Source: a virus
Length of the DNA stretch: 60,376 nt
Virus record (IMG/VR): IMGVR_UViG_3300047548_000760
Coordinates: 1-60,376 of that record
Direction: 5' to 3' (one strand)
The position numbers were made by a program, and so were the translations under genes. Of the stretch, positions 4,979-17,422 are shown piece by piece (the stretch's first letter is position 1; each line of letters starts with the position of its first letter). The notes under the pieces are model-generated. The model had not been told where the DNA came from. It was given only the letters and a program-made list of their open reading frames with translations, and did no database searches.

Positions 4979-7900
4979 TTGCCGAGCCTGCCCATGCCAC
5001 TCGTCTTTCCCGATCAAGCCGCCCAGGCGGCCACGCGCCCGGCCTCTGACGCTGCCCAGGCGGCAGCGCAAGGGGTGACGCCCCAGGCCCAGCAACCGGC
5101 GCAGCCTGCCGGCCGGCTCGTGTTTCCGCGCGAGTTGTCTCTGCGGGATGCCGGGTCGATCGCGGCCGATATGGGCACCGCGCTCTGGGAGGGCGCCAAG
5201 AACACCGGCCGCATGCTGGGCGCCACCGGTAACACGGTGGGCGGGAATCTGTCGGGCGTGGACGAGCTTGCGCGATCGCAGGCCGCAGCCGAGGCGCAGT
5301 CACCGGACGCGAAGGCCCTGCTGATGCAGGAGATCCAGCGCCGCAAGGCCGCGAACCCTGATGCTGGGTGGCTGGACGTGATCAAGAACGTCGGCGCCTC
5401 GTTCATCGGTCAGCCCGAGGGCGCGGCGCAGTTTGTGGCCGAGCAGACCCCGAACACGGCGGTCAGCCTGGGCGCTGGCATTGCAGGCGCAAAAGGCGGC
5501 GCCGCACTTGGCAGCCTCATCATGCCCGGCGTGGGCACTGCAGTGGGCGGTGTCGCCGGCTTCCTGGGCGGCATGTTCCTGGGCAACGCCAGCCTGGAGA
5601 TCGGCGGCAAGGCCATGGAGAAGTCGCAGGATCAGGCCCGCACGGGCGGATCCCTGACGGCCGACGATGCAAGCGCTGCCATCCGCGAGGGTTCCGTCAA
5701 GGGCGGCGTCATCACGGCCGTCGATGCTGCGACCCTTGGCGCCGGCCGAGGCGTGGCGCGCCTGTTCAACAAGACCGCTATCGAGGCTGGCGCCCGCGCC
5801 GAGGCCCGAGTGCTTGCCGATGCTGGCGTGGATGTCACCAGCCGCGCTGCCATCGAGCGATCGCTTGCGGCGGACCCGGTGCTGCGCGCAACGGCGCAGG
5901 AGGCCGGCAAGGTAGCCGCTCAGTCTGCGTCCAAGATTGGCAGCCGAGCCGCCACGGGCGGAACGCTGTTGGGTATGGAGACGGTCGGCGAAGGCGCTGG
6001 TGAGTACCTGGGCGAGCTGGCCGCAACGGGCAAGGCCGACAAGTACGACGCGGTGATGGAGGCGATGGCAGGGCTTTCGCAGTCCGTGCCAGAGACCGCC
6101 TGGAGCATGCGTCAGTCGCAGGGCAACGACCTGAGTGCTCGCGGCATCGAGCGCGTTGGCGGGGATCTTCCGCCCGCAGCGCCCGCACCGGCGCCCTCTG
6201 AGCCGCCCGCACCGCCTGCGCCTCCAACCCCACCGGCCGCCCCGAACAACACGATCATCCCGCCTGCCGATGTGCCGCCGCTGGACCCCACAGCGCTGCC
6301 GCCCGACCTGGACGCACAGAACCGCGACCGCACGCGCTCGGCCAGCGTGCTGCAGATGCAGAAGATCGCGCAGAACCCGGACTACCTGCGCGCGGGCCCA
6401 TCCCGCTCGCCCGACACCGGCGCGCCGATGGTGTTCGCGCAGGGCGACGACACGAGCTTGTTCCCGAGCTTCACTCGCGGCCGTGAGGACGTGGCCGTGA
6501 TGTCCGACGGCCAGCGCGTGCCGTTCCAGTACGCGGTGGTCGATGCCAGCCTGCTGCAGCCGTCCAACTTTGCCGACGGCACGCCCAATCCGCTCTTCAA
6601 CAACGAGACGCCCGGCCTTGTGAAGGCCCTGAGCAACGCCCGCAGCGCAGGCCTGCGTGCTGCCTGGGCGCAGGGCACGGCATCGGGCTATGCGGCAGAC
6701 CTTGAGGCCGACACTAAGCAGCACGGAATCTCTGTCGAGGCGATCCGCTCGACGAGCAACCCAGTCCTGGTACGCCTGTACTCGCAGTCCTCGAATACCC
6801 CGGGCATGGCCGCCCGATCGCAGGGGCAAGGCCTGGGCATGTCGCCTGGGGAACTGGCCCGCCAGGATGCGCCGCTGATCGACGGTGGCCTGCTTGCCGT
6901 GTGGCAAGGCGGGGACGTGGCGGATGCCCGAAACCTGGACTTCGTGCGCGGGTTCGTCGGCCGGCTGCAGGGCACCGGCCAGGACCTTGCGGGGATGATG
7001 ACCCAGGCTGGCACGCTCTCGCCGGACGGGCGCAAGCGCATCCAGGCGGCTCTGGCCCAGTCGGCCTACGGCGACTCGGACCTGATCGCCGAGATGTTCG
7101 ACTCCACCGACACCGACATCAAGGCGATCGGCGAAGCGCTCAAGCTCGCCGCGCCCGAGTGGGCCGACATGCGCGACTCTGCGCGCAGCGGGGCGATTGA
7201 CCCTGCAGCCGACATCACGCCGGCCCTGCTGGATGCGGTGGCCATGGTGCGCCGTGCGCGCCAGCAGCGGCAGAGCCTGTCCGACCTTGCACGTCAGACC
7301 GACATCACGACGGGCCAGACGCCTGACCCGATGGTGCTGGGCGCCCTGCGCTTGCTGTACGGCGGGGAGTACCTCACGCGCCCGATGGGCCGCGACCGCA
7401 TGGCCGACTTCCTGCGGGAATACACGCGGCTGGCCAAGGGCATCACGGCCGACGCCGGCCTGTTCGGGGACGCCCCGGCGCCGCTGGACGTGCTCACCGC
7501 ATTGACGAAGGAGACCGCAACCGATGGACAGCAGCAACAACCCGGCGCAGCAGCCGGCACAACCCAGCAGCCCGGCGCGGGCCTCCAGCAACCCAATGGC
7601 GGCAGCAATCCTGGGGGCGATGCTGGTCCGGGAGGGGCAGCGGCAGTACGACCCGGCGACAACGCAGGCGGGGCACAACCTGCTGCGGGTGGCGCAGGAC
7701 CACTGGCCAACACCGATACCGCAGGACAAGCGGCTGCCCAAGGGGTAACTGCGCCCGGCAACCAGCCGATGGTCGGTGATGCGTTTGATCCGACTGGTTG
7801 GTCAGAGCAAGAGAACAAGATCAACAAGAAGACCGGGCAGCCCATGCTTGGCTCCGGGAGGGTTCGCTTCAAGCGCGCAGACGAACGCGGATTTGAGCAA

Positions 7901-10900
7901 AGCGTCGTTGTGCAGAACGGGGTGATCGTCACATCGAACTCGGTTTCTCCACTTGTTGAGCTGACGAACTCAAGCCTCGACTTTGATGCTCCTGTGCGTG
8001 GTCGCGTTCACGTTCTCAACTCGGATGTTCAGGGACTGGTCCTTACGTTTGTTCCGGAAGATTCGTCTGGCGCGACAGCCACAAAGATGAGTCCGCGAGC
8101 CGTCCAGCAATACAAGGACGGCGTTCCCATTGAAAAGATCACGGAGACGGAGTTCTCTGACGCTGGCGGCATCAAGCCGGACGGCTCGCGCACCCCGCAC
8201 ACGACCGTTGGAGCCCTGGTCAAGGGCCCGGCACCGGGCGCCCCGGTAAGCGCGCCCGCAACGACGCAAGGAGCTTCCGATGTACGACAAGAAGGGCAAG
8301 GGCGGCGGCAAGAAGAAGCGCTGACGCCAGAAGCCGGCGCGCCTGGGCAGCAGCCTGGGGCGCCGGCCGCAGCACAGACGCCCGCTCCAGCTCCTGCTCC
8401 GCGCACCCCTGAAGCTATGGGCGACGCACTCAGGCGGCGCATTCAAGGCGACGTCCAGGCCAAGAGAGACGGCGAAGCAGCCTACCAAAGCGGTGCCGAT
8501 CGCATCCCGCCCGAGTCGATGACTGCGCCATCGCAGCGAAGGATGTGGCTGGAGGGATACGACACGGCCGCGCCGGCCTCGTCGCCCGCACCAGCACCAG
8601 CGCCGACCCCGGCCGGTGGCGCCAACACCGTCTTCACCGAGGACGCTGCAGCGGCTGCCCGTGCGCGCCTGAAGGCCAAGCTGGGCCGGCTGAACTCCGG
8701 CATCGACCCCGAGACGATGCTGGACGGCATCACGCTCGCGGGCTACCACATCGAGCGCGGCGCGCGGACCTTTGCGGCCTACGCTCGCGCGATGGTCGAT
8801 GACCTGGGCGACGCCGTGAAGCCCTACCTCGTGTCCTGGTACTTGGCCGTGCGCAACGATCCGCGCGCATCTGACTTCAAGGCCGACATGGACAAGGCCG
8901 GCGCCGTTGAGGATGCGGACCTGGACGCGCTGTTGGCGAACAAGGGCAAGGCGCCCGAGGCCGCGTCAGCCGTTCAACCGTCCCTCAACACACCGGCCGG
9001 CCGCATGGCCCTGGCCCAGGTCATTGCCGACCGGTTCATCGGTGGCGACGGCTTCAAGACCATCATCGAGGCCCGCAAGTTCATCGCAGAGGCCACGGGC
9101 GAGAAGATCGAGGCCGGCACCCAGGCCGCGAAGCTGGCCGACGAGGCGATCGAGATGGCCGTGGTCATGGCCGGGCGCGAGATTGTCCAGGCCGCACGTG
9201 CCCAGGGCCGCAGCGACAGCGTCATCTACGACCGGCTGGTGAACCTGTACGACCTGCAGCCGACGCTGGGCGTGCGCACGTCCACCAGCGTGCGAGAGCA
9301 GGCCTACAGCACGCCCGTGCCCCTGGCCTTCCTGGCGTCTCGCCGGGCCCAGGTCGGGCCCGACAGCACGGTGGGCGAGCCCACGGCCGGCAACACCATG
9401 CTGCTGATCGAGGTCGACCCCGAGCGCGCTGCGGTCAACGAGCTCAACGCCGACCGGGCGGCCAACGCTCGCGCACTGGGTTTCACGGTGACCAGCCACG
9501 ACGCTGCGCGCCACCAGCTCGCGCCCGAGAAGTCGCTGGACCGGGTGGTGGCCAACCCGCCGTTCGGGGCAGTCAAGGGCGACGACGGGCAGACGGTGGT
9601 GTTCCCGGTGGCCTCGAACTACGGCACGCGCGAGATCGACCATGCCATCTCGTTCAAGGCCCTGGACGCCATGAAGGACGACGGATCGGCGGTGCTGATC
9701 CTGGGCGGCGTGGACGCCTCCAACGAGGAAGCGATCCGCGAGGGCTATCGGAGCAAGAGCAAACGGGAGTTCTACTTCCGGCTGTACGGTCTCTACAACG
9801 TGGTCGACCACTTCACGGTCGACGGCGGTCTGTATTCCAAGCAGGGAGCGGGCTACCCTGTGGATGTGGTTGTGATCCGGGGGCGCGGCAAGGCGACCCG
9901 TGCGATGCCGGCCGCTGAACTGCCCAAGCGGTACGACAACTGGGAAGCACTGAAGAAGGAGAAGCTCGATGGATCAACCGAAGCAACCGCAACTGGCGTG
10001 GTGCCCACCGGGCCTGCCACCGGAACTGGCCGCAGTGATGGTGCCCAAGGACAGCAGCCTGGAGCCGGGGGACTGGTGGATGGCGCTGGCCGACAGGGTG
10101 CAGGAACTGGTGGACAAGGAGCCGGACCCGGACGAGGCGGCGACGTGGGCGGCACGGTCGCTGGGACGCCCGGGGCTGAGGGACAGCCAGGACGCCGGGG
10201 AGGTGCTGGTGCAGCGCAACCTGGAACTGCGGACGGCCCTGACGCTGGACGTGACGGCGCAGCCCAAGCACCCGTTTCCGGCCAAGGCCCTCGTGGAGTC
10301 CGCGGCAACGCGCCGGGCGATGGAGGAAACCGACCTGGAGACGTGGGTGGAACTGGCGGCAGCCAGGGTGAGCGCGTCGAGTCTGGACTAAGCGATCGCC
10401 GGGGCCTGGAGCAGGAGACCGAGACCCAGGTCGAATACGCGCCCCAGTCGGGCGCCGCGTCGGTGGGCACGCTGGTGCCCCGCGCCATGCGCGAGTCCAT
10501 CGCAGCCTCGCTCAAGCGGGTGGCTGACTCGGTGGGCAACATCGACGAGTTCGTCGCGGAGAAGCTGAACTTCGATCCCGAGACGCTGCGGGCCAACTTC
10601 TCGGCCGAGCAGGTCGACGCCCTGGCGCTGGCGATCATGAGCGCCGAGGCCGGCAAGGGCTTCATCATCGGGGACCAGACCGGCATCGGTAAGGGCCGGG
10701 TCGTCGCGGCGATGCTGCGCTACGCGATGATCAACGAGAGGATTCCGGTGTTCGTCACCGAGAAGCCGAACCTGTACGCGGACATGATCCGCGACCTGGA
10801 CGACATCGGCATGGGCGACGAACTGCGGCTGCAGTCCAACAAGCCGCTGATCCTGGCCACCAACTCCAGCGAGCCCATCCCCTACGTCCTGCAGCGCAAG

Positions 10901-13900
10901 TCCGGCGACACGATTGTCGAGACCGAGCACACGCTGCGTGCACCCGGGGCCGGCGCTGACCTGGAAAAGTTCTTTGACCAGATCGCGGGCAGCCGCGACA
11001 TCGGCCCGTACAAGGTTGTCTTCACCACGTACAGCCAGCTGCAGACCGTCAAGGGCAAGGTCACGGCGCGCATGCGCATGGTGCAGTCCCTGGCCCAGGG
11101 CGGCTACATGGTCTTCGATGAGAGCCACAACGCGGGCGGCACGCAGATCACGCAACCCCGCACCAAGAAGGACCGCGACGCGGCCAAGGCCGGCGAGACC
11201 ACGACGGGCCGCTCCGGGTTCGTGCGCAGCCTCGTGCGCGTCTCGTCGGGCAGCTTCTTCTCGTCGGCCACCTACGCCAAGCGCCCCGACGTGATGGACC
11301 TCTACAGCAGCACCAACATGCTGCTGGCGGTGGACCGGCCCGCTGACCTTGCGCCGGCCATCATGCAGGGCGGCGTGCCCATGCAGCAGATCGTGGCGAC
11401 GATGCTGGCCGAAGACGGGCAGTACATCCGCCGCGAGCGCACGTTCGCGGGCGTGACCTACGAGACCCGGCCGATGACGGTGGACCGGCAGACGGCCGAG
11501 AACATGGCGCAGTCCATGCGCATGATCCTGGCCTTCTCGCGCGGCAAGGAAGCCGCCGTCAAGGCAATGCAAAAGGAGTTCGACCGCGAGGGCGCCATGG
11601 TGGGCGTGTCTGGCGGCGAGAAGACCTCGGTGCAGGGCGCCAACTTCGGCGCGATCATGCACAACCTCATCGACCAGATGCTGCTGTCGCTCAAGGCCAA
11701 GGAGTCTGTGGACTTCGCCATCGAGCGCCTGAAAGCCGGCGAGAAGGTCGTGCTGACGGTGGCCAACACGATGGGCTCGTTCCTGTCGGACTATGCCGAG
11801 GAGTTTGGCATCCGCCCTGGCGAGCCTGTCACGCTCAGCTTTGCGGACCTGTACCAGCGCTACCTTGAGAAGCAGCGCGTGGTGAAGATCAAGCGCCCAG
11901 GCGGACCCAAGAGCGGCGTGCCGTACCGGCTGACCGACTCCGACCTGGGCAGTGGTCTGGTGGCGCAGTACAACGATGTGGCGCGGTTCATCCAGGAAGC
12001 CGGCTTCGGCTCCGCGCCCATCTCCCCGATCGACTACATGCACCAGCGGCTGCGCGAGGCCGGCTACAAGACCGACGAGATCACGGGCCGCAGTGTCACG
12101 GTGAGCTACGCGGGCAAGGCTCCGGTCCTGGCATCGCGCAACGCCAACATCAAGCAGCGCCTGACAGCGATCCGCGGCTTCAACAGTGGCGCAATCGACG
12201 TGATCATCCTCAACCAGTCGGGCGCCACGGGTCTGTCCCTGCACGCTTCGGCCAAGGTCAAGGACCAGCGCAAGCGGCGCATGATCATCGTCCAGGCCGA
12301 GAAGAACATCGACACCCACATGCAGATGCTGGGTCGCGTGCACCGCACGGGTCAGGTGATCACGCCGGACTACACGCAGGCCATGGCCGACATCCCGGCC
12401 GAGGCCCGGCCGGCGTCGGTGCTGCTGAAGAAGATGGCCAGCCTGAACGCCAACACCACCGCCAGCCGCAAGAGCGCGGTGACGGCCGAGGGCGTCGTGG
12501 ACTTCATGAACGACTACGGCGGTCAGGTGGCTGCCGAGTTCCTGCTGGACAACCCCGAGATCCACATGGACCTGGGCGGCCAGAAGGTGCTGGAGATCCC
12601 GGCCGAGGCCACGGAGGCCGACGAGGACCTGATCCGCAAGCTCACCGGCTACATCCCCATCCTGCCCATTGAGCAGCAGGAGGCGGTCTACCGCGACTTG
12701 GTGGACCGCTACAACGACTTGCTGGCCCGTGAGAACGCCATGGGCACCAACAAGCTCGAAGCCGCAGCGCTCGACCTGGGTGCGAAGACGGAAAAGCGCG
12801 AGCAGATCACGACCAAGCGCGACAGCCCCGTGCCGTCGCGGTTCGCCGAGCCGGCTTTCATGGAGCAGGTCGACGTGGCGCGCACGGTCAAGCCGCTGAC
12901 CAAGGCCGAGGTCCAAGAGGCCGTCAGCCAGTCGCTGGGCGGCAAGACCCCGCAGATGGTGGCCAACGAGCTCAACAGTTCCCTGGCGCAGCGCATGGAG
13001 CCGTTCCTCGTTGACCTGCAAAAGCGCCGCATGCAGCAGGGCGCCGACACGGACGGCGAGAAGCGCGCCCAGTTGGCCCAGGAGGTCGAGCGGCACCGGA
13101 TGCAGCAGTCGATCATCTCGGACCTGCTGTTTCGCTTCCAGATCGGGCAGGAGGTTTCGCTGCTGGACCAGCACCAGTCGGTGACCTACGGCGTCATCAC
13201 ATCGGTGTCGGCAGCCGGCAAGACCAAGAGCCCAGCCGCCGCTTCGGGCTGGAAGTTCACGATCGCCCTGGCCAACGGCGAGGCCCGCTCCATCACGCTG
13301 AGCGCCTCGCAGATCGGCAAGCAGTTCACCCTGCGCGCCGAGCGCGGGCCGGTGATCACGCTCAACCCCAGCACGAACGAGCCGGCCTCGATGAGGATCC
13401 CCGACCTGTTCGACGCCTACGGCGGCTCGGGCAACGTGCGGCGCGAGAAGCGCTGGATGGTCACGGGCAACCTGCTAGCGGGCTTTGCCTCGTACCCCGG
13501 TCAGATCCTCACGTACACCAAGGACGACGGATCAACCGGGCAAGGCGTGCTGATGCGTCGGGGCTTCGACTTTGAAAAGCGCAGGGGCGAGGCCAAGGCC
13601 TCGTTCCCTTCCGCAACCGTCATTCGCCTGTTCTTCACCGAGGCCGGCCGCAACGCCACGATCGGCACGCCCGATGGCGTGCTGCGCGTGAAGTGGTACG
13701 GCGGGAACTACCCGGCTGAGTTCGAGGTCGCCTCTTCCAAGCGCGAGGGCGGCAGGTTCTACCTGGATCGCGGCCTGACGGACGCCCTTGGGCGCGACTT
13801 CACCAAGGTCGGGCAGGTCATGCGCGCTGCGGTGACCGAAGACGACATGATGCGCGCCCTGGTCTACCTGATGACCGAGCGCGACGACGTAAAGCTCGAA

Positions 13901-16900
13901 GCGCAGACGAACAAGGACGTGGCCCGGCGCCTGCTGGGCCTGCCCGATGTGACGGAGTCGCAGGGCAAGCGCACGGGCGACAGACCGGCGTTCTCCCGCA
14001 CGGACGCGGCTACCAAGGGCATGACGGTTGCCGGCGTGCAGCGCGTCTCGGGCGGCGCGATGGCGGCCTGGGCAAACAAGCCCCGGCTGGTCGTGGCGCG
14101 CAACATCCAGGAGCCCAGCGTGCCGCAGGCGCTGCGCGACGAAGACGCACGCCAGCGCAAGGGTGGCGCAACGGGCGATGTGCGCGGCACCTTCTATGAG
14201 GGCGTCATCTACCTGTTCAGCGACCACCTGGGCAGCGACAAGGATGTGATCGAGACCCTGTTCCACGAGGGCCTGGGTCACTACGGCCTGCGGGGCGTGT
14301 TCGGAGATGCACTCAACGCGGTGCTGGACATGATCAACCTCGCGCGGCCGGACCTGATGCGCCCGAAGGCTGCCGAGTACGGAGCGGACCTGCGCAAGCC
14401 TGCGCAGCGCCGCAAGGTGGCCGAGGAGGTGCTGGCCAGCATGGCGCAGTCCGAGCCCTCGCTTGGGTTCGTGCGCCGGGCGGTGGCCGCGGTTCGCACG
14501 TGGCTGCGCACCAACGTGCCCGGCTTCGAGAAGTTGCGCCTGACCGACGACGAGATCATCCGCAGCTTCATCTTGCCGGCGCGCCAGTTTGTGATGCAAG
14601 GGCAGGCCCAGGCTGTTGCCAGCGCAGCAGGCGCCCAGGCGGCGTTTGCTCGCGCTTCCCAAGGCGGGCCCCGTCAGACTCCCGAGCAGCGCGCCGAGAC
14701 CATCCTGGCCACGCCCGTGACCCAGGCGCGGCCGCTTGATCGGGTGTTTCGCACTGTCTCGCGCATGACCGGCTTGGAGGCCGTGACCAACCGCATCTAC
14801 GGCCGGGCTGCCTACCTGCTGGATCGATTCACTCCTGAGACCGTCAAGGCCGGCATCGTCTCCGACTACGGCGTGCCCGAGGCGGTGATCGACATGCGCG
14901 TCATGCTGCAGGGCCGGCAGCGCCAGCAGTTGCGCCGCTCCGGCGAACTGGTGGACAAGCTGGCCAGCCTGACCCGCGAGGAGTCCCGGATTGCCTACGA
15001 GTGGATGAACATGGACGGCTCGGACCCCCGCGCCTACCTGTCCATGATGCAGGGCCTACCCGAGGAGTCCGTGCGGGTGCTGCAGGACGTGCAGCGCATG
15101 ATCGACGACCTGTCCAAGGAGGCGGTGCGCCTGGGCCAGCTGGACCCCAGGTCCTACGAGCGCTTCAAGTTCGCCTACCTGCGCCGGACATACGAGCGCT
15201 ACCTCGAAGAGTTGACCCCGCAGCAGCGGGCCAGCCAGCAGCGCGCCACCCGCATCCTGGGTGACCAGTACCGCATGCGCGGCTTGGTCGAGCCCGTGGA
15301 GATGGCCAAGATTAAGTCCGGGGACCCGGAGTGGTGGGGCCGCAAGGAGCGCGAGGGCAAGGGCGACACCGGTCTGGTGAACCAGAAGTTCATCAAGCTG
15401 GAGCGCCTGAAGCCCACGGGCGCCGGCACGATCCCGCTGCCGGGCATGACCGGCCGGCCCGATGGCAAGGTGCTTGAGGTGGTCTACTGGCCCGCCGATC
15501 GCGCCGTGCCTGCGAAGTACAGCGAGTGGCGCCAGAACGAGGTCTTTGAGGTCCGCGATGTGAAGGGCGGCAAGGTCATCCTGTGGCGCGACTTCACAAA
15601 GGACGAGCGCGAGGCCATGGGCGAGGTTGATGAGGCCCGCTTTGCGATCGCCCGCACGCTGCAGCGCATGGTCCACGATGTCGAGGTCGGGCGCTACCTG
15701 GAGGGCCTGTCCCAGAAGTACGCCAAGGCCGACGGCGACGAGATCGACGGCACCCTGGTGGAAGCCAGCGAGCACTGGCACCGGGCGTTCAAGCCGGGCG
15801 ACTGGGTGAAGGTGCCAGAGACCAAGATCACGGGCACGAGCGTGGCCAAGTACGGCAAGCTCGCCGGCAAGTACCTGCCGGGCCCGATCTGGAACGACGT
15901 GCGCTTTGCTGTGAACGGACCGTTCCAGCCGTTCGGCGAGGTCTACGGCAAGGTACTGTCGGCCTGGAAGGTGGCCAAGACGGCGCTGACACCGGCCGTG
16001 CACATGAACAACGTCATGGCCAACCTCGTGATGGCCGACTGGCACGAGGTGGGCGCGGCGCACGTGGGCAAGGCCCTGCGGATCATCCTGGCGGCCAACC
16101 AGCGCGACGGCAAGGGCGCACTTGGCAGCCTGGGCAACGTCGCTGCAAGCGGCGGCATCGCCGACCGCGAGGCGGCGCTGCAGATCATGAACCGCTACCG
16201 GGATGCGGGCGGCGACATCGGGTCATGGGCGACCCAGGAGATCGCCCGCGAGCAGATGGCCCCGCTGCTGGACGCTGTGCTGGAGGAGTTGGGGCGCAAC
16301 GGGGACGCCTCGGTGCAGGGGCAGATCGGCGTCATGGCGGCGCTGCAGCACTTGCTGCACCTGAAGCTGCCCGAGGCCTGGAGCGCGTTCAAGGCCAGCA
16401 AGCCGGCCACCGTCGCCGGCCGCGAGGCTCAGTCCATGATTGACCTGTATCAGGCCGAGGATGACGTGTTCCGGCTGGCGGCGTGGCTGGCAGCCAAGGA
16501 GCGCGGCCTGGATGACCTGCGCGCCGGCCGGGAGGCCCGCAAGTCCTTCCTGGACTACGACATCAACGCGCCCTGGATCGACGCGATGCGGCGCAGCGCG
16601 TGGCCGTTCATCTCGTTCACCTACCGCGCCGTGCCCATGCTCTTCGAGATCGCCGGCAAGCGACCGCACAAGCTGATGAAGCTGGCGGTGCTGGTTGGCG
16701 CCCTGAACATGCTGGGCGTGGCCATGTCCGGTGACGACGAGGACGAGGACGAGCGCCGTCGCCGCATGCTGCCCGAGGAAAAGGCCGGCAAGGTCTGGGG
16801 CATCGTGCCCAAGTTGATCCGCATGCCCTGGGACGACAAGAACGGCTCTCCGGTGTACCTGGACATCCGGCGCTTCGTCCCGGTGGGTGACATCGTGGAC

Positions 16901-17422
16901 ACCGGCTCCACTCAGGCGGCGCTGCCCGTGCCGCCCGGACTGATGCCCGGGGGCCCGCTGGTCATTCTGGGCGAGGTGCTGATGAACAAGAGCGCGTTCA
17001 CCGGCAAGCCGATCGTGCTGGGAACCGACACACCGACCGAAGTGGCCGGCAAGGTGTTCAGCCACCTCTACAAGGGATTCGTGCCGAACCTGCCGGGCTT
17101 GCCCGGCACTTACGCGACCGACGCCCTGGTCAACGCCGGCAGCGGCAAGACGGACGCCTTTGGGCGCCAGCAGTCGGTGGCCCAGGCGGTGGCCTCGTCA
17201 GTCGGGGTCAAGTTGGGCAGCTACCCCGAGGATGTGCTGCGGCGCAACACCATGGCGCGCGCGAGCGCCCAGGAGCGGGAGATCGAGACGGTGATGCGGG
17301 GGCTGCAGCGGCAGCGGCAGATGAATGCGATCAGCCAGGAAGAGTTCGACCGGAAGATCGAAGTGCAGCGGGAAAAGCTGCGCAAGCTGTCGCAGGAAAC
17401 GCGAGAAAAAGTGGCGCAGTAA
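4979..17422 (+). CDS. Giant polyvalent protein: ddrB-ParB, N6-adenine methylase, Strawberry-notch-like helicase, HExxH, LPD38-like
   Basis: A 4147-codon ORF from TTG (4132 from ATG 4994; no good ribosome-binding site for either). Domains in order: hydrophobic Gly-rich N-terminus (about 150-230); ddrB-type ParB-like domain (480-650); a conserved segment starting VFTEDAAAAARARL (1217-1295); methyltransferase with GEPTAGNT (about 1464) and NPPF (1525); superfamily 2 helicase with GDQTGIGKGR (1898), DESH (2047) and QMLGRVHRTGQ (2449); HEGLGH zincin motif (3096); then a long region resembling LPD38 with a hydrophobic segment near 3900. Such polyvalent proteins, like P1 DarB, are packaged and ejected with phage DNA and protect it or remodel it in the cell. 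Domains are joined by Gly/Pro/Gln linkers, three of which overlap small genes in another frame. It follows the terminase small subunit gene, after a copy of the 15-bp element. Confidence 0.9.
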   Translation: MPSLPMPLVFPDQAAQAATRPASDAAQAAAQGVTPQAQQPAQPAGRLVFPRELSLRDAGSIAADMGTALWEGAKNTGRMLGATGNTVGGNLSGVDELARSQAAAEAQSPDAKALLMQEIQRRKAANPDAGWLDVIKNVGASFIGQPEGAAQFVAEQTPNTAVSLGAGIAGAKGGAALGSLIMPGVGTAVGGVAGFLGGMFLGNASLEIGGKAMEKSQDQARTGGSLTADDASAAIREGSVKGGVITAVDAATLGAGRGVARLFNKTAIEAGARAEARVLADAGVDVTSRAAIERSLAADPVLRATAQEAGKVAAQSASKIGSRAATGGTLLGMETVGEGAGEYLGELAATGKADKYDAVMEAMAGLSQSVPETAWSMRQSQGNDLSARGIERVGGDLPPAAPAPAPSEPPAPPAPPTPPAAPNNTIIPPADVPPLDPTALPPDLDAQNRDRTRSASVLQMQKIAQNPDYLRAGPSRSPDTGAPMVFAQGDDTSLFPSFTRGREDVAVMSDGQRVPFQYAVVDASLLQPSNFADGTPNPLFNNETPGLVKALSNARSAGLRAAWAQGTASGYAADLEADTKQHGISVEAIRSTSNPVLVRLYSQSSNTPGMAARSQGQGLGMSPGELARQDAPLIDGGLLAVWQGGDVADARNLDFVRGFVGRLQGTGQDLAGMMTQAGTLSPDGRKRIQAALAQSAYGDSDLIAEMFDSTDTDIKAIGEALKLAAPEWADMRDSARSGAIDPAADITPALLDAVAMVRRARQQRQSLSDLARQTDITTGQTPDPMVLGALRLLYGGEYLTRPMGRDRMADFLREYTRLAKGITADAGLFGDAPAPLDVLTALTKETATDGQQQQPGAAAGTTQQPGAGLQQPNGGSNPGGDAGPGGAAAVRPGDNAGGAQPAAGGAGPLANTDTAGQAAAQGVTAPGNQPMVGDAFDPTGWSEQENKINKKTGQPMLGSGRVRFKRADERGFEQSVVVQNGVIVTSNSVSPLVELTNSSLDFDAPVRGRVHVLNSDVQGLVLTFVPEDSSGATATKMSPRAVQQYKDGVPIEKITETEFSDAGGIKPDGSRTPHTTVGALVKGPAPGAPVSAPATTQGASDVRQEGQGRRQEEALTPEAGAPGQQPGAPAAAQTPAPAPAPRTPEAMGDALRRRIQGDVQAKRDGEAAYQSGADRIPPESMTAPSQRRMWLEGYDTAAPASSPAPAPAPTPAGGANTVFTEDAAAAARARLKAKLGRLNSGIDPETMLDGITLAGYHIERGARTFAAYARAMVDDLGDAVKPYLVSWYLAVRNDPRASDFKADMDKAGAVEDADLDALLANKGKAPEAASAVQPSLNTPAGRMALAQVIADRFIGGDGFKTIIEARKFIAEATGEKIEAGTQAAKLADEAIEMAVVMAGREIVQAARAQGRSDSVIYDRLVNLYDLQPTLGVRTSTSVREQAYSTPVPLAFLASRRAQVGPDSTVGEPTAGNTMLLIEVDPERAAVNELNADRAANARALGFTVTSHDAARHQLAPEKSLDRVVANPPFGAVKGDDGQTVVFPVASNYGTREIDHAISFKALDAMKDDGSAVLILGGVDASNEEAIREGYRSKSKREFYFRLYGLYNVVDHFTVDGGLYSKQGAGYPVDVVVIRGRGKATRAMPAAELPKRYDNWEALKKEKLDGSTEATATGVVPTGPATGTGRSDGAQGQQPGAGGLVDGAGRQGAGTGGQGAGPGRGGDVGGTVAGTPGAEGQPGRRGGAGAAQPGTADGPDAGRDGAAQAPVSGQGPRGVRGNAPGDGGNRPGDVGGTGGSQGERVESGLSDRRGLEQETETQVEYAPQSGAASVGTLVPRAMRESIAASLKRVADSVGNIDEFVAEKLNFDPETLRANFSAEQVDALALAIMSAEAGKGFIIGDQTGIGKGRVVAAMLRYAMINERIPVFVTEKPNLYADMIRDLDDIGMGDELRLQSNKPLILATNSSEPIPYVLQRKSGDTIVETEHTLRAPGAGADLEKFFDQIAGSRDIGPYKVVFTTYSQLQTVKGKVTARMRMVQSLAQGGYMVFDESHNAGGTQITQPRTKKDRDAAKAGETTTGRSGFVRSLVRVSSGSFFSSATYAKRPDVMDLYSSTNMLLAVDRPADLAPAIMQGGVPMQQIVATMLAEDGQYIRRERTFAGVTYETRPMTVDRQTAENMAQSMRMILAFSRGKEAAVKAMQKEFDREGAMVGVSGGEKTSVQGANFGAIMHNLIDQMLLSLKAKESVDFAIERLKAGEKVVLTVANTMGSFLSDYAEEFGIRPGEPVTLSFADLYQRYLEKQRVVKIKRPGGPKSGVPYRLTDSDLGSGLVAQYNDVARFIQEAGFGSAPISPIDYMHQRLREAGYKTDEITGRSVTVSYAGKAPVLASRNANIKQRLTAIRGFNSGAIDVIILNQSGATGLSLHASAKVKDQRKRRMIIVQAEKNIDTHMQMLGRVHRTGQVITPDYTQAMADIPAEARPASVLLKKMASLNANTTASRKSAVTAEGVVDFMNDYGGQVAAEFLLDNPEIHMDLGGQKVLEIPAEATEADEDLIRKLTGYIPILPIEQQEAVYRDLVDRYNDLLARENAMGTNKLEAAALDLGAKTEKREQITTKRDSPVPSRFAEPAFMEQVDVARTVKPLTKAEVQEAVSQSLGGKTPQMVANELNSSLAQRMEPFLVDLQKRRMQQGADTDGEKRAQLAQEVERHRMQQSIISDLLFRFQIGQEVSLLDQHQSVTYGVITSVSAAGKTKSPAAASGWKFTIALANGEARSITLSASQIGKQFTLRAERGPVITLNPSTNEPASMRIPDLFDAYGGSGNVRREKRWMVTGNLLAGFASYPGQILTYTKDDGSTGQGVLMRRGFDFEKRRGEAKASFPSATVIRLFFTEAGRNATIGTPDGVLRVKWYGGNYPAEFEVASSKREGGRFYLDRGLTDALGRDFTKVGQVMRAAVTEDDMMRALVYLMTERDDVKLEAQTNKDVARRLLGLPDVTESQGKRTGDRPAFSRTDAATKGMTVAGVQRVSGGAMAAWANKPRLVVARNIQEPSVPQALRDEDARQRKGGATGDVRGTFYEGVIYLFSDHLGSDKDVIETLFHEGLGHYGLRGVFGDALNAVLDMINLARPDLMRPKAAEYGADLRKPAQRRKVAEEVLASMAQSEPSLGFVRRAVAAVRTWLRTNVPGFEKLRLTDDEIIRSFILPARQFVMQGQAQAVASAAGAQAAFARASQGGPRQTPEQRAETILATPVTQARPLDRVFRTVSRMTGLEAVTNRIYGRAAYLLDRFTPETVKAGIVSDYGVPEAVIDMRVMLQGRQRQQLRRSGELVDKLASLTREESRIAYEWMNMDGSDPRAYLSMMQGLPEESVRVLQDVQRMIDDLSKEAVRLGQLDPRSYERFKFAYLRRTYERYLEELTPQQRASQQRATRILGDQYRMRGLVEPVEMAKIKSGDPEWWGRKEREGKGDTGLVNQKFIKLERLKPTGAGTIPLPGMTGRPDGKVLEVVYWPADRAVPAKYSEWRQNEVFEVRDVKGGKVILWRDFTKDEREAMGEVDEARFAIARTLQRMVHDVEVGRYLEGLSQKYAKADGDEIDGTLVEASEHWHRAFKPGDWVKVPETKITGTSVAKYGKLAGKYLPGPIWNDVRFAVNGPFQPFGEVYGKVLSAWKVAKTALTPAVHMNNVMANLVMADWHEVGAAHVGKALRIILAANQRDGKGALGSLGNVAASGGIADREAALQIMNRYRDAGGDIGSWATQEIAREQMAPLLDAVLEELGRNGDASVQGQIGVMAALQHLLHLKLPEAWSAFKASKPATVAGREAQSMIDLYQAEDDVFRLAAWLAAKERGLDDLRAGREARKSFLDYDINAPWIDAMRRSAWPFISFTYRAVPMLFEIAGKRPHKLMKLAVLVGALNMLGVAMSGDDEDEDERRRRMLPEEKAGKVWGIVPKLIRMPWDDKNGSPVYLDIRRFVPVGDIVDTGSTQAALPVPPGLMPGGPLVILGEVLMNKSAFTGKPIVLGTDTPTEVAGKVFSHLYKGFVPNLPGLPGTYATDALVNAGSGKTDAFGRQQSVAQAVASSVGVKLGSYPEDVLRRNTMARASAQEREIETVMRGLQRQRQMNAISQEEFDRKIEVQREKLRKLSQETREKVAQ
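7524..7748 (+). CDS. Nested small gene A inside the polyvalent gene
   Basis: A 74-residue ORF in the +1 frame relative to the giant gene. AAGGAG at 7508-7513 lies 10 bases before the ATG. The product has credible composition (PMAAAILGAMLVREGQRQYD, HNLLRVAQDHWPTPIPQD). In the same bases the giant frame is a low-complexity Q/P/G/A linker (residues 849-923), as expected when a GC-rich gene is read out of frame. It is either a real overlapping gene or the relic of a once separate intergenic gene. The function is unknown. Confidence 0.6.
   Translation: MDSSNNPAQQPAQPSSPARASSNPMAAAILGAMLVREGQRQYDPATTQAGHNLLRVAQDHWPTPIPQDKRLPKG
8280..8324 (+). CDS. Nested mini-ORF B inside the polyvalent gene (14 residues)
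   Basis: ATG at 8280 with AAGGAG at 8268-8273, spacing 6 bases, encodes MYDKKGKGGGKKKR, a very basic glycine-lysine peptide, in the same +1 frame as nested genes A and C. The overlapped giant-frame residues (about 1101-1115) lie in a linker. A DNA- or RNA-binding micro-peptide is possible. Short length limits confidence; the ribosome-binding site and shared frame support it. Confidence 0.45.
   Translation: MYDKKGKGGGKKKR
9969..10391 (+). CDS. Nested gene C inside the polyvalent gene (140 residues)
   Basis: A 140-residue ORF in the +1 frame, with AAGGAG at 9956-9961, 7 bases before the ATG. The product (MDQPKQPQLAWCPPGLPPEL ... LEPGDWWMALADRVQELVDK) looks like a globular helical protein with normal Trp, Asp and Glu content. 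The giant frame over the same bases (residues 1664-1804) is almost only Gly, Ala, Pro, Gln, Arg and Asp, a typical out-of-frame reading. It lies exactly between the methylase and helicase domains. No family is recognised. Confidence 0.7.
   Translation: MDQPKQPQLAWCPPGLPPELAAVMVPKDSSLEPGDWWMALADRVQELVDKEPDPDEAATWAARSLGRPGLRDSQDAGEVLVQRNLELRTALTLDVTAQPKHPFPAKALVESAATRRAMEETDLETWVELAAARVSASSLD

Follow-up and report, generated by a model that had tools for sequence, protein, structure and literature searches.

The nested frame and its host gene

The window, i.e., the whole 60,376-base stretch of virus record IMGVR_UViG_3300047548_000760 analysed here (66% GC), contains a giant gene composed of a ddrB-ParB domain, an N6-methyltransferase (MTase) part with a VANPPFG motif, and a Strawberry-notch SNF2-type helicase. 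The features discussed below are as follows.

4979..17422, + strand: gene of the giant polyvalent protein; the listed ORF begins at TTG and has 4147 aa
7524..7748, + strand: second nested gene, frame +1, 74 aa, preceded by AAGGAG and located at a different domain border of the giant protein
9200..9967, + strand: MTase part of the giant frame, with C-terminal KKEK(L), whose Lys-Glu codons are the AAGGAG site
9956..9961, + strand: AAGGAG ribosome-binding site, 7 nt before the nested ATG
9969..10391, + strand: nested gene, frame +1 relative to the giant ORF, 140 aa, ATG start
10430..12929, + strand: helicase part of the giant frame, starting after the linker

The ATG at 4994, rather than the listed TTG, is likely the true start of the giant gene. 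The gene matches Pfam AAA_34 and Helicase_C_4 above cut-off; its MTase part has the VANPPFG motif and matches mad2 weakly. It is a DarB-type host gene, that is, an MTase fused to an SNF2/Strawberry-notch helicase. As a separate observation, positions 12932-13170 of the giant gene change far faster than their flanks in comparisons with the related loci L005, L008 and L012.

The frame at 9969-10391 is a complete ORF lying within another gene in a different frame, and the earlier note on this DNA had described it exactly, both in its coordinates and in its 140 residues and AAGGAG 7 bases before the ATG. The same note had called the giant frame over these bases a Gly/Ala/Pro/Gln linker, and its measured composition is 34% Gly, 14% Ala, 9% Pro and 7% Gln.

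The nested gene also carries its own translation start signals. At the ribosome-binding site, the Lys-Glu pair of the giant protein is spelled AAG GAG in 46 of 49 loci, compared with 111 of 1080 Lys-Glu pairs (10%) elsewhere in the same giant genes, and in 47 of 68 loci AGGAG ends 7 nt ahead of the nested start. The nested ATG is immediately preceded by a +1-frame stop codon in most viral loci, which excludes entry by an upstream frameshift and indicates internal initiation. From these sequence features we infer that the nested protein is made by ribosomes initiating internally.

Conservation and selection in the two frames

In the window alone, the probability that the nested +1 frame is open, given the amino acids of the giant protein, is 0.65; at 66% GC this single sequence is therefore weak evidence for a nested gene. 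Because a lone +1 frame is so unremarkable, relatives were gathered via the helicase and MTase parts and not via the nested ORF, the helicase query giving 80 viral loci and the MTase query 80. Across GC contents of 37-70%, the contigs bearing the junction have a +1 ORF that starts at the end of the MTase domain and in most cases encodes about 90-155 aa, and among the nearer relatives the homology of the nested proteins is plain. A first HMM, seeded with 48 phage sequences, was used to search every +1 and +2 ORF close to the junction; it found matches in 137 loci, all in frame +1 and 0 in +2. A second HMM, built from shorter and more divergent nested versions, iterates into the first family, so that both represent one superfamily. 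With the two HMMs together, a homologous +1 ORF is present in 79 of 80 viral loci and in 71 of 80 bacterial loci, the latter mostly from cyanobacteria. The sole viral locus without a match, L027, is cut by the contig end, and of the nine bacterial loci without one, two are truncated and two have their frames broken; four have a similarly sized +1 ORF, and in one the genes are separate. A viral contig retrieved with an outgroup helicase query, L334, has a candidate 132-aa +1 ORF at the junction (L334:2570-2966).

The substitution pattern distinguishes the overlap from its surroundings. Among 19 disjoint viral pairs, substitutions at giant codon positions 1/2/3 number 559/339/258 in the overlap and 728/480/1931 in the adjacent helicase, and a bacterial replicate, mainly cyanobacterial, gives 657/322/251 versus 318/170/1293. 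The third position of the giant frame is the slowest in the overlap because it is the second position of the nested codons. Moreover, amino-acid identity is higher for the nested protein than for the linker in 192 of 192 viral pairs and 219 of 219 bacterial pairs (411/411 together). Both the codon positions and these identities support the suggestion in the earlier note that the linker owes its sequence to the nested gene, as a by-product.

Both frames are kept by selection. Synonymous codon resampling was applied to 65 non-redundant viral loci and 65 bacterial loci. The nested frame is open in 65 of 65 viral loci where 15.8 were expected, and the giant frame in 65 of 65 where 1.26 were expected. 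In the bacterial set, both frames are open in 64 of 65 loci (expected, 10.6 for the nested frame and 1.8 for the giant frame), the exception being L218, a broken gene. The giant frame is hence selected at least for openness, which argues for a real fusion protein and not for passive read-through. A check of conservation in both frames among relatives, as the earlier note had proposed, thus finds selection on each.

When 19 pairs of whole giant genes were scanned without preselection for the inverted codon-position pattern, this junction was flagged in most of them. The only other recurrent site was 7524-7748, in the window's own clade. The second nested gene at this site shows the inverted pattern against L005 and has homologues in L004, L005 and L008 (65-86%). 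Its product is basic (pI 10), with no evident relation to the first nested gene. In L012 and L079 this position is occupied by different +1 ORFs, which have a similar Shine-Dalgarno (SD) sequence. When candidates with AAGGAG, an ATG start and at least 40 aa were screened, 16512-16676 was the only other one to pass, and it was rejected as a third nested gene since its codon-position pattern is that of ordinary giant-frame conservation. Of the three nested genes that had been claimed, 9969-10391 and 7524-7748 are therefore upheld by codon positions and homologues, and the third is unsupported.

It is quite likely, on these data, that 9969-10391 is a dual-coding gene and that the linker sequence is its by-product. 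A chance open frame, or a composition artefact of a GC-rich linker, would be compatible with the value of 0.65 obtained from this window alone, but conservation at 37-50% GC, the inverted codon-position pattern, the sequence homology and a confident predicted fold (below) make such an origin hardly credible. It is also very unlikely that a programmed frameshift yields an MTase-nested fusion in place of a separate protein; the use of the same +1 frame everywhere would be expected from such an event, but the stop codons adjoining the ATG and the SD spacing fixed at 7 nt run counter to it.

Predicted product, distribution and genomic context

The structure of the nested protein was predicted with AlphaFold2 from the viral alignment (pLDDT 89.8, pTM 0.84) and from an independent cyanobacterial alignment (pLDDT 93.5, pTM 0.89). 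Compared by the order of their elements, with coordinates not superposed, both models run through a strand, a short helix, an extended segment, a long helix and then more helices, the last two of which follow another strand. The nested protein is thus predicted to adopt an alpha/beta fold without a PDB match: Foldseek searches of both models against the PDB and viral models returned nothing credible, with no PDB hit at E below 0.8. No known chaperone fold was found in the Foldseek comparison with the PDB, and the protein is not classed here as a secretion chaperone; likeness to the solved DNA mimics Ocr and ArdA was also not found. Searches of the family against Pfam, PHROGs, PADLOC, NCBIfam and PDB sequences gave nothing convincing, and weak matches to interleukin-6 and similar proteins were set aside as noise.

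The nested protein of the window has a pI of 4.2, and acidity is common to the whole family, with pI values of 3.7-5.1 among 48 viral members and 3.9-4.9 among 27 cyanobacterial ones; the net charge is only about -7 per 100 residues. Small size and acidity are properties of the VirE1/T3SS chaperone class. The acidity is partly forced by the frame, because Gly codons (GGN) in the giant frame make the nested codons start with G; being tied to the Gly-rich linker, it is not counted as independent evidence of function.

The nested gene is found in viral contigs, in cyanobacterial plasmids and chromosomes, and in loci labelled as Desulfovibrio, alphaproteobacteria and betaproteobacteria. One instance lies unannotated on plasmid pAQ6 of the laboratory strain Picosynechococcus sp. 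PCC 7002, within SYNPCC7002_RS15125 (HMM E = 1e-29).

L336:3584-4090 = NC_010480.1 100507-101013, complement strand: unannotated 168-aa nested gene of pAQ6, HMM match

In Gloeobacter (L167:6752-7201, NZ_CP063846.1), RefSeq annotates the nested gene as WP_230844304.1 and lets the helicase gene begin at the nested gene's end, yet the MTase-helicase frame is open throughout. Judged from this open frame, the giant gene of L167 is probably mis-annotated, with the helicase start placed too late. Phages related to Bacteroides phage BS-TP4 have a conserved +1 ORF in 9 contigs, whose homology to the nested family is not significant (hhalign probability 10%); in the cultured phage BS-TP4 the site is PQ571277.1, about 10032-10391. 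A contig from a Candidatus Moraniibacteriota MAG, L273, carries a phage-type giant gene with the nested gene and was binned to a CPR genome; it is possibly a mis-binned phage contig or reflects an unusual host.

The surroundings of the giant gene are those of DNA transfer. A cyanobacterial module (L229:641-11408) consists of a VirD4/TraD coupling protein gene, two unknown genes, the giant gene and a small gene, and the giant gene downstream of VirD4/TraD encodes MTase-helicase-MutS_I and carries the nested gene. A coupling protein is likewise encoded upstream of the giant gene at plasmid locus L169. Phage structural genes are also part of this context, and the giant gene of BS-TP4 adjoins the portal gene. 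Several such modules occur in Nodosilinea LEGE 07298 (contigs L221, L224, L228, L231 and L233). Polyvalent proteins are delivered together with DNA (PMC5512222), and by analogy this context fits the delivery of the giant protein along with the DNA.

Origin, possible role and known systems

According to a suggestion in the earlier note, the nested gene once stood by itself between genes, and the giant protein is the product of gene fusion. Three adjacent genes, encoding an MTase, the small protein and a helicase, would then have been joined when stop loss fused the outer two through the small one. In favour of this origin, the linker does behave as a by-product, and there are Bacteroidota loci in which the MTase and the helicase are encoded separately. 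However, no free nested homologue was found in viral contigs, where 44 of 44 profile matches fell in contigs known for the giant gene, in phage or plasmid records, or in a six-frame search of 292 cyanobacterial and 385 + 199 other genomes (876). Where checked, the six-frame matches are enclosed by a giant frame that is open and has helicase motifs; one further match, interrupted by stops, was spurious. The two Bacteroidota loci with separate genes have 0 genes between MTase and helicase, the place where the earlier note had proposed to look for a free homologue, and the Proteobacterial outgroup plasmid genes are fused yet have a different linker, often acidic or Pro-rich, without a nested ORF. 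Because a free homologue is lacking, the fused outgroups are gene-less and the separate-gene loci do not have the nested gene, an origin by fusion is unsupported, and we consider it improbable. In the helicase tree, which is unrooted and has long outgroup branches, the gene-less loci group together and 2 or 3 changes are needed; L305, misframed in the first tree, was left out of the second. Overprinting of a pre-existing linker is the more economical and more likely origin, and the nested gene probably arose once, in an MTase-linker-helicase gene whose fusion had already taken place.

On the most likely reading, two proteins are encoded by the stretch that separates the MTase domain from the helicase domain. 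In the long frame it is a flexible linker by which the giant polyvalent protein continues, and in the +1 frame it is a complete small gene on which ribosomes would start afresh at the internal Shine-Dalgarno/ATG. Selection acts mainly on the residues of the small protein and, for the giant protein, mainly on the open frame. The small protein would be made alongside the giant protein, where the MTase domain has just been synthesised, and may bind it and hold it inactive or ready for translocation. It would do so until the giant protein leaves along with phage DNA at ejection or passes a conjugation channel, after which the MTase-helicase would shield the DNA from restriction.

The nested protein is therefore tentatively proposed to be a dedicated acidic partner of a translocated MTase-helicase protein, a role suggested by strict co-occurrence, the position after the MTase, acidity and the DNA-transfer context. 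A little more tentative is the broader proposal that the family exists only overprinted inside its client, as an acidic partner or chaperone of new fold shared by phages and conjugative elements of several phyla. The small protein might instead have a job of its own, for example as a DNA mimic blocking host restriction or another defence, which would suit a small, always acidic product located in an antirestriction-type gene. A free inhibitor should move independently, but in the viral contigs and genomes searched the nested gene was never found without the MTase-helicase gene; furthermore, the modest net charge and the lack of structural similarity to any PDB entry tell against a job of its own, which we regard as unlikely, although it is the main rival of the partner role.

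The family may be compared with three known systems. DarB-type MTase-helicase polyvalent proteins have been described previously (Iyer et al. 2017, PMC5512222). Like the giant gene, they fuse an adenine MTase to an SNF2/Strawberry-notch helicase, have ddrB-ParB, MutS-I or similar domains, and occur in phages and conjugative elements (PMC5512222). They differ in that a nested +1 gene is not described there (the word 'overlapping' is absent from PMC5512222), and the outgroup plasmid genes analysed here are without it. A literature search for this nested gene likewise found no description. VirE1 is named an acidic secretion chaperone (PMC5389803). Small acidic secretion chaperones of this kind resemble the nested protein in their size, their acidity and their being encoded with a large translocated DNA-handling protein, whereas the nested gene lies inside the gene of its putative client rather than beside it and its product has a predicted fold without a PDB match.

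The nested gene hardly ever appears in annotations: gene finders either miss it or, in the single case of Gloeobacter, annotate it and shorten the real helicase gene, and the linkers of giant proteins appear worth searching for hidden partners. The large data set makes the origin of an overprinted gene testable. To our knowledge, few same-strand overlapping genes are both long and conserved, and most of those known come from single phages. The B, K and E genes of phiX174 and Rz1 of lambda are fully nested same-strand overlapping phage genes, and like the nested gene each is complete, has a start of its own and is read in a shifted frame. In contrast to them, the gene described here occupies the interdomain linker of a giant gene, with no other position found, and its product has a confident predicted fold. 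Members of its family occur in phages and in mobile elements across several phyla, so that one nested gene, with a fold that has no solved match, has been kept over very large distances.
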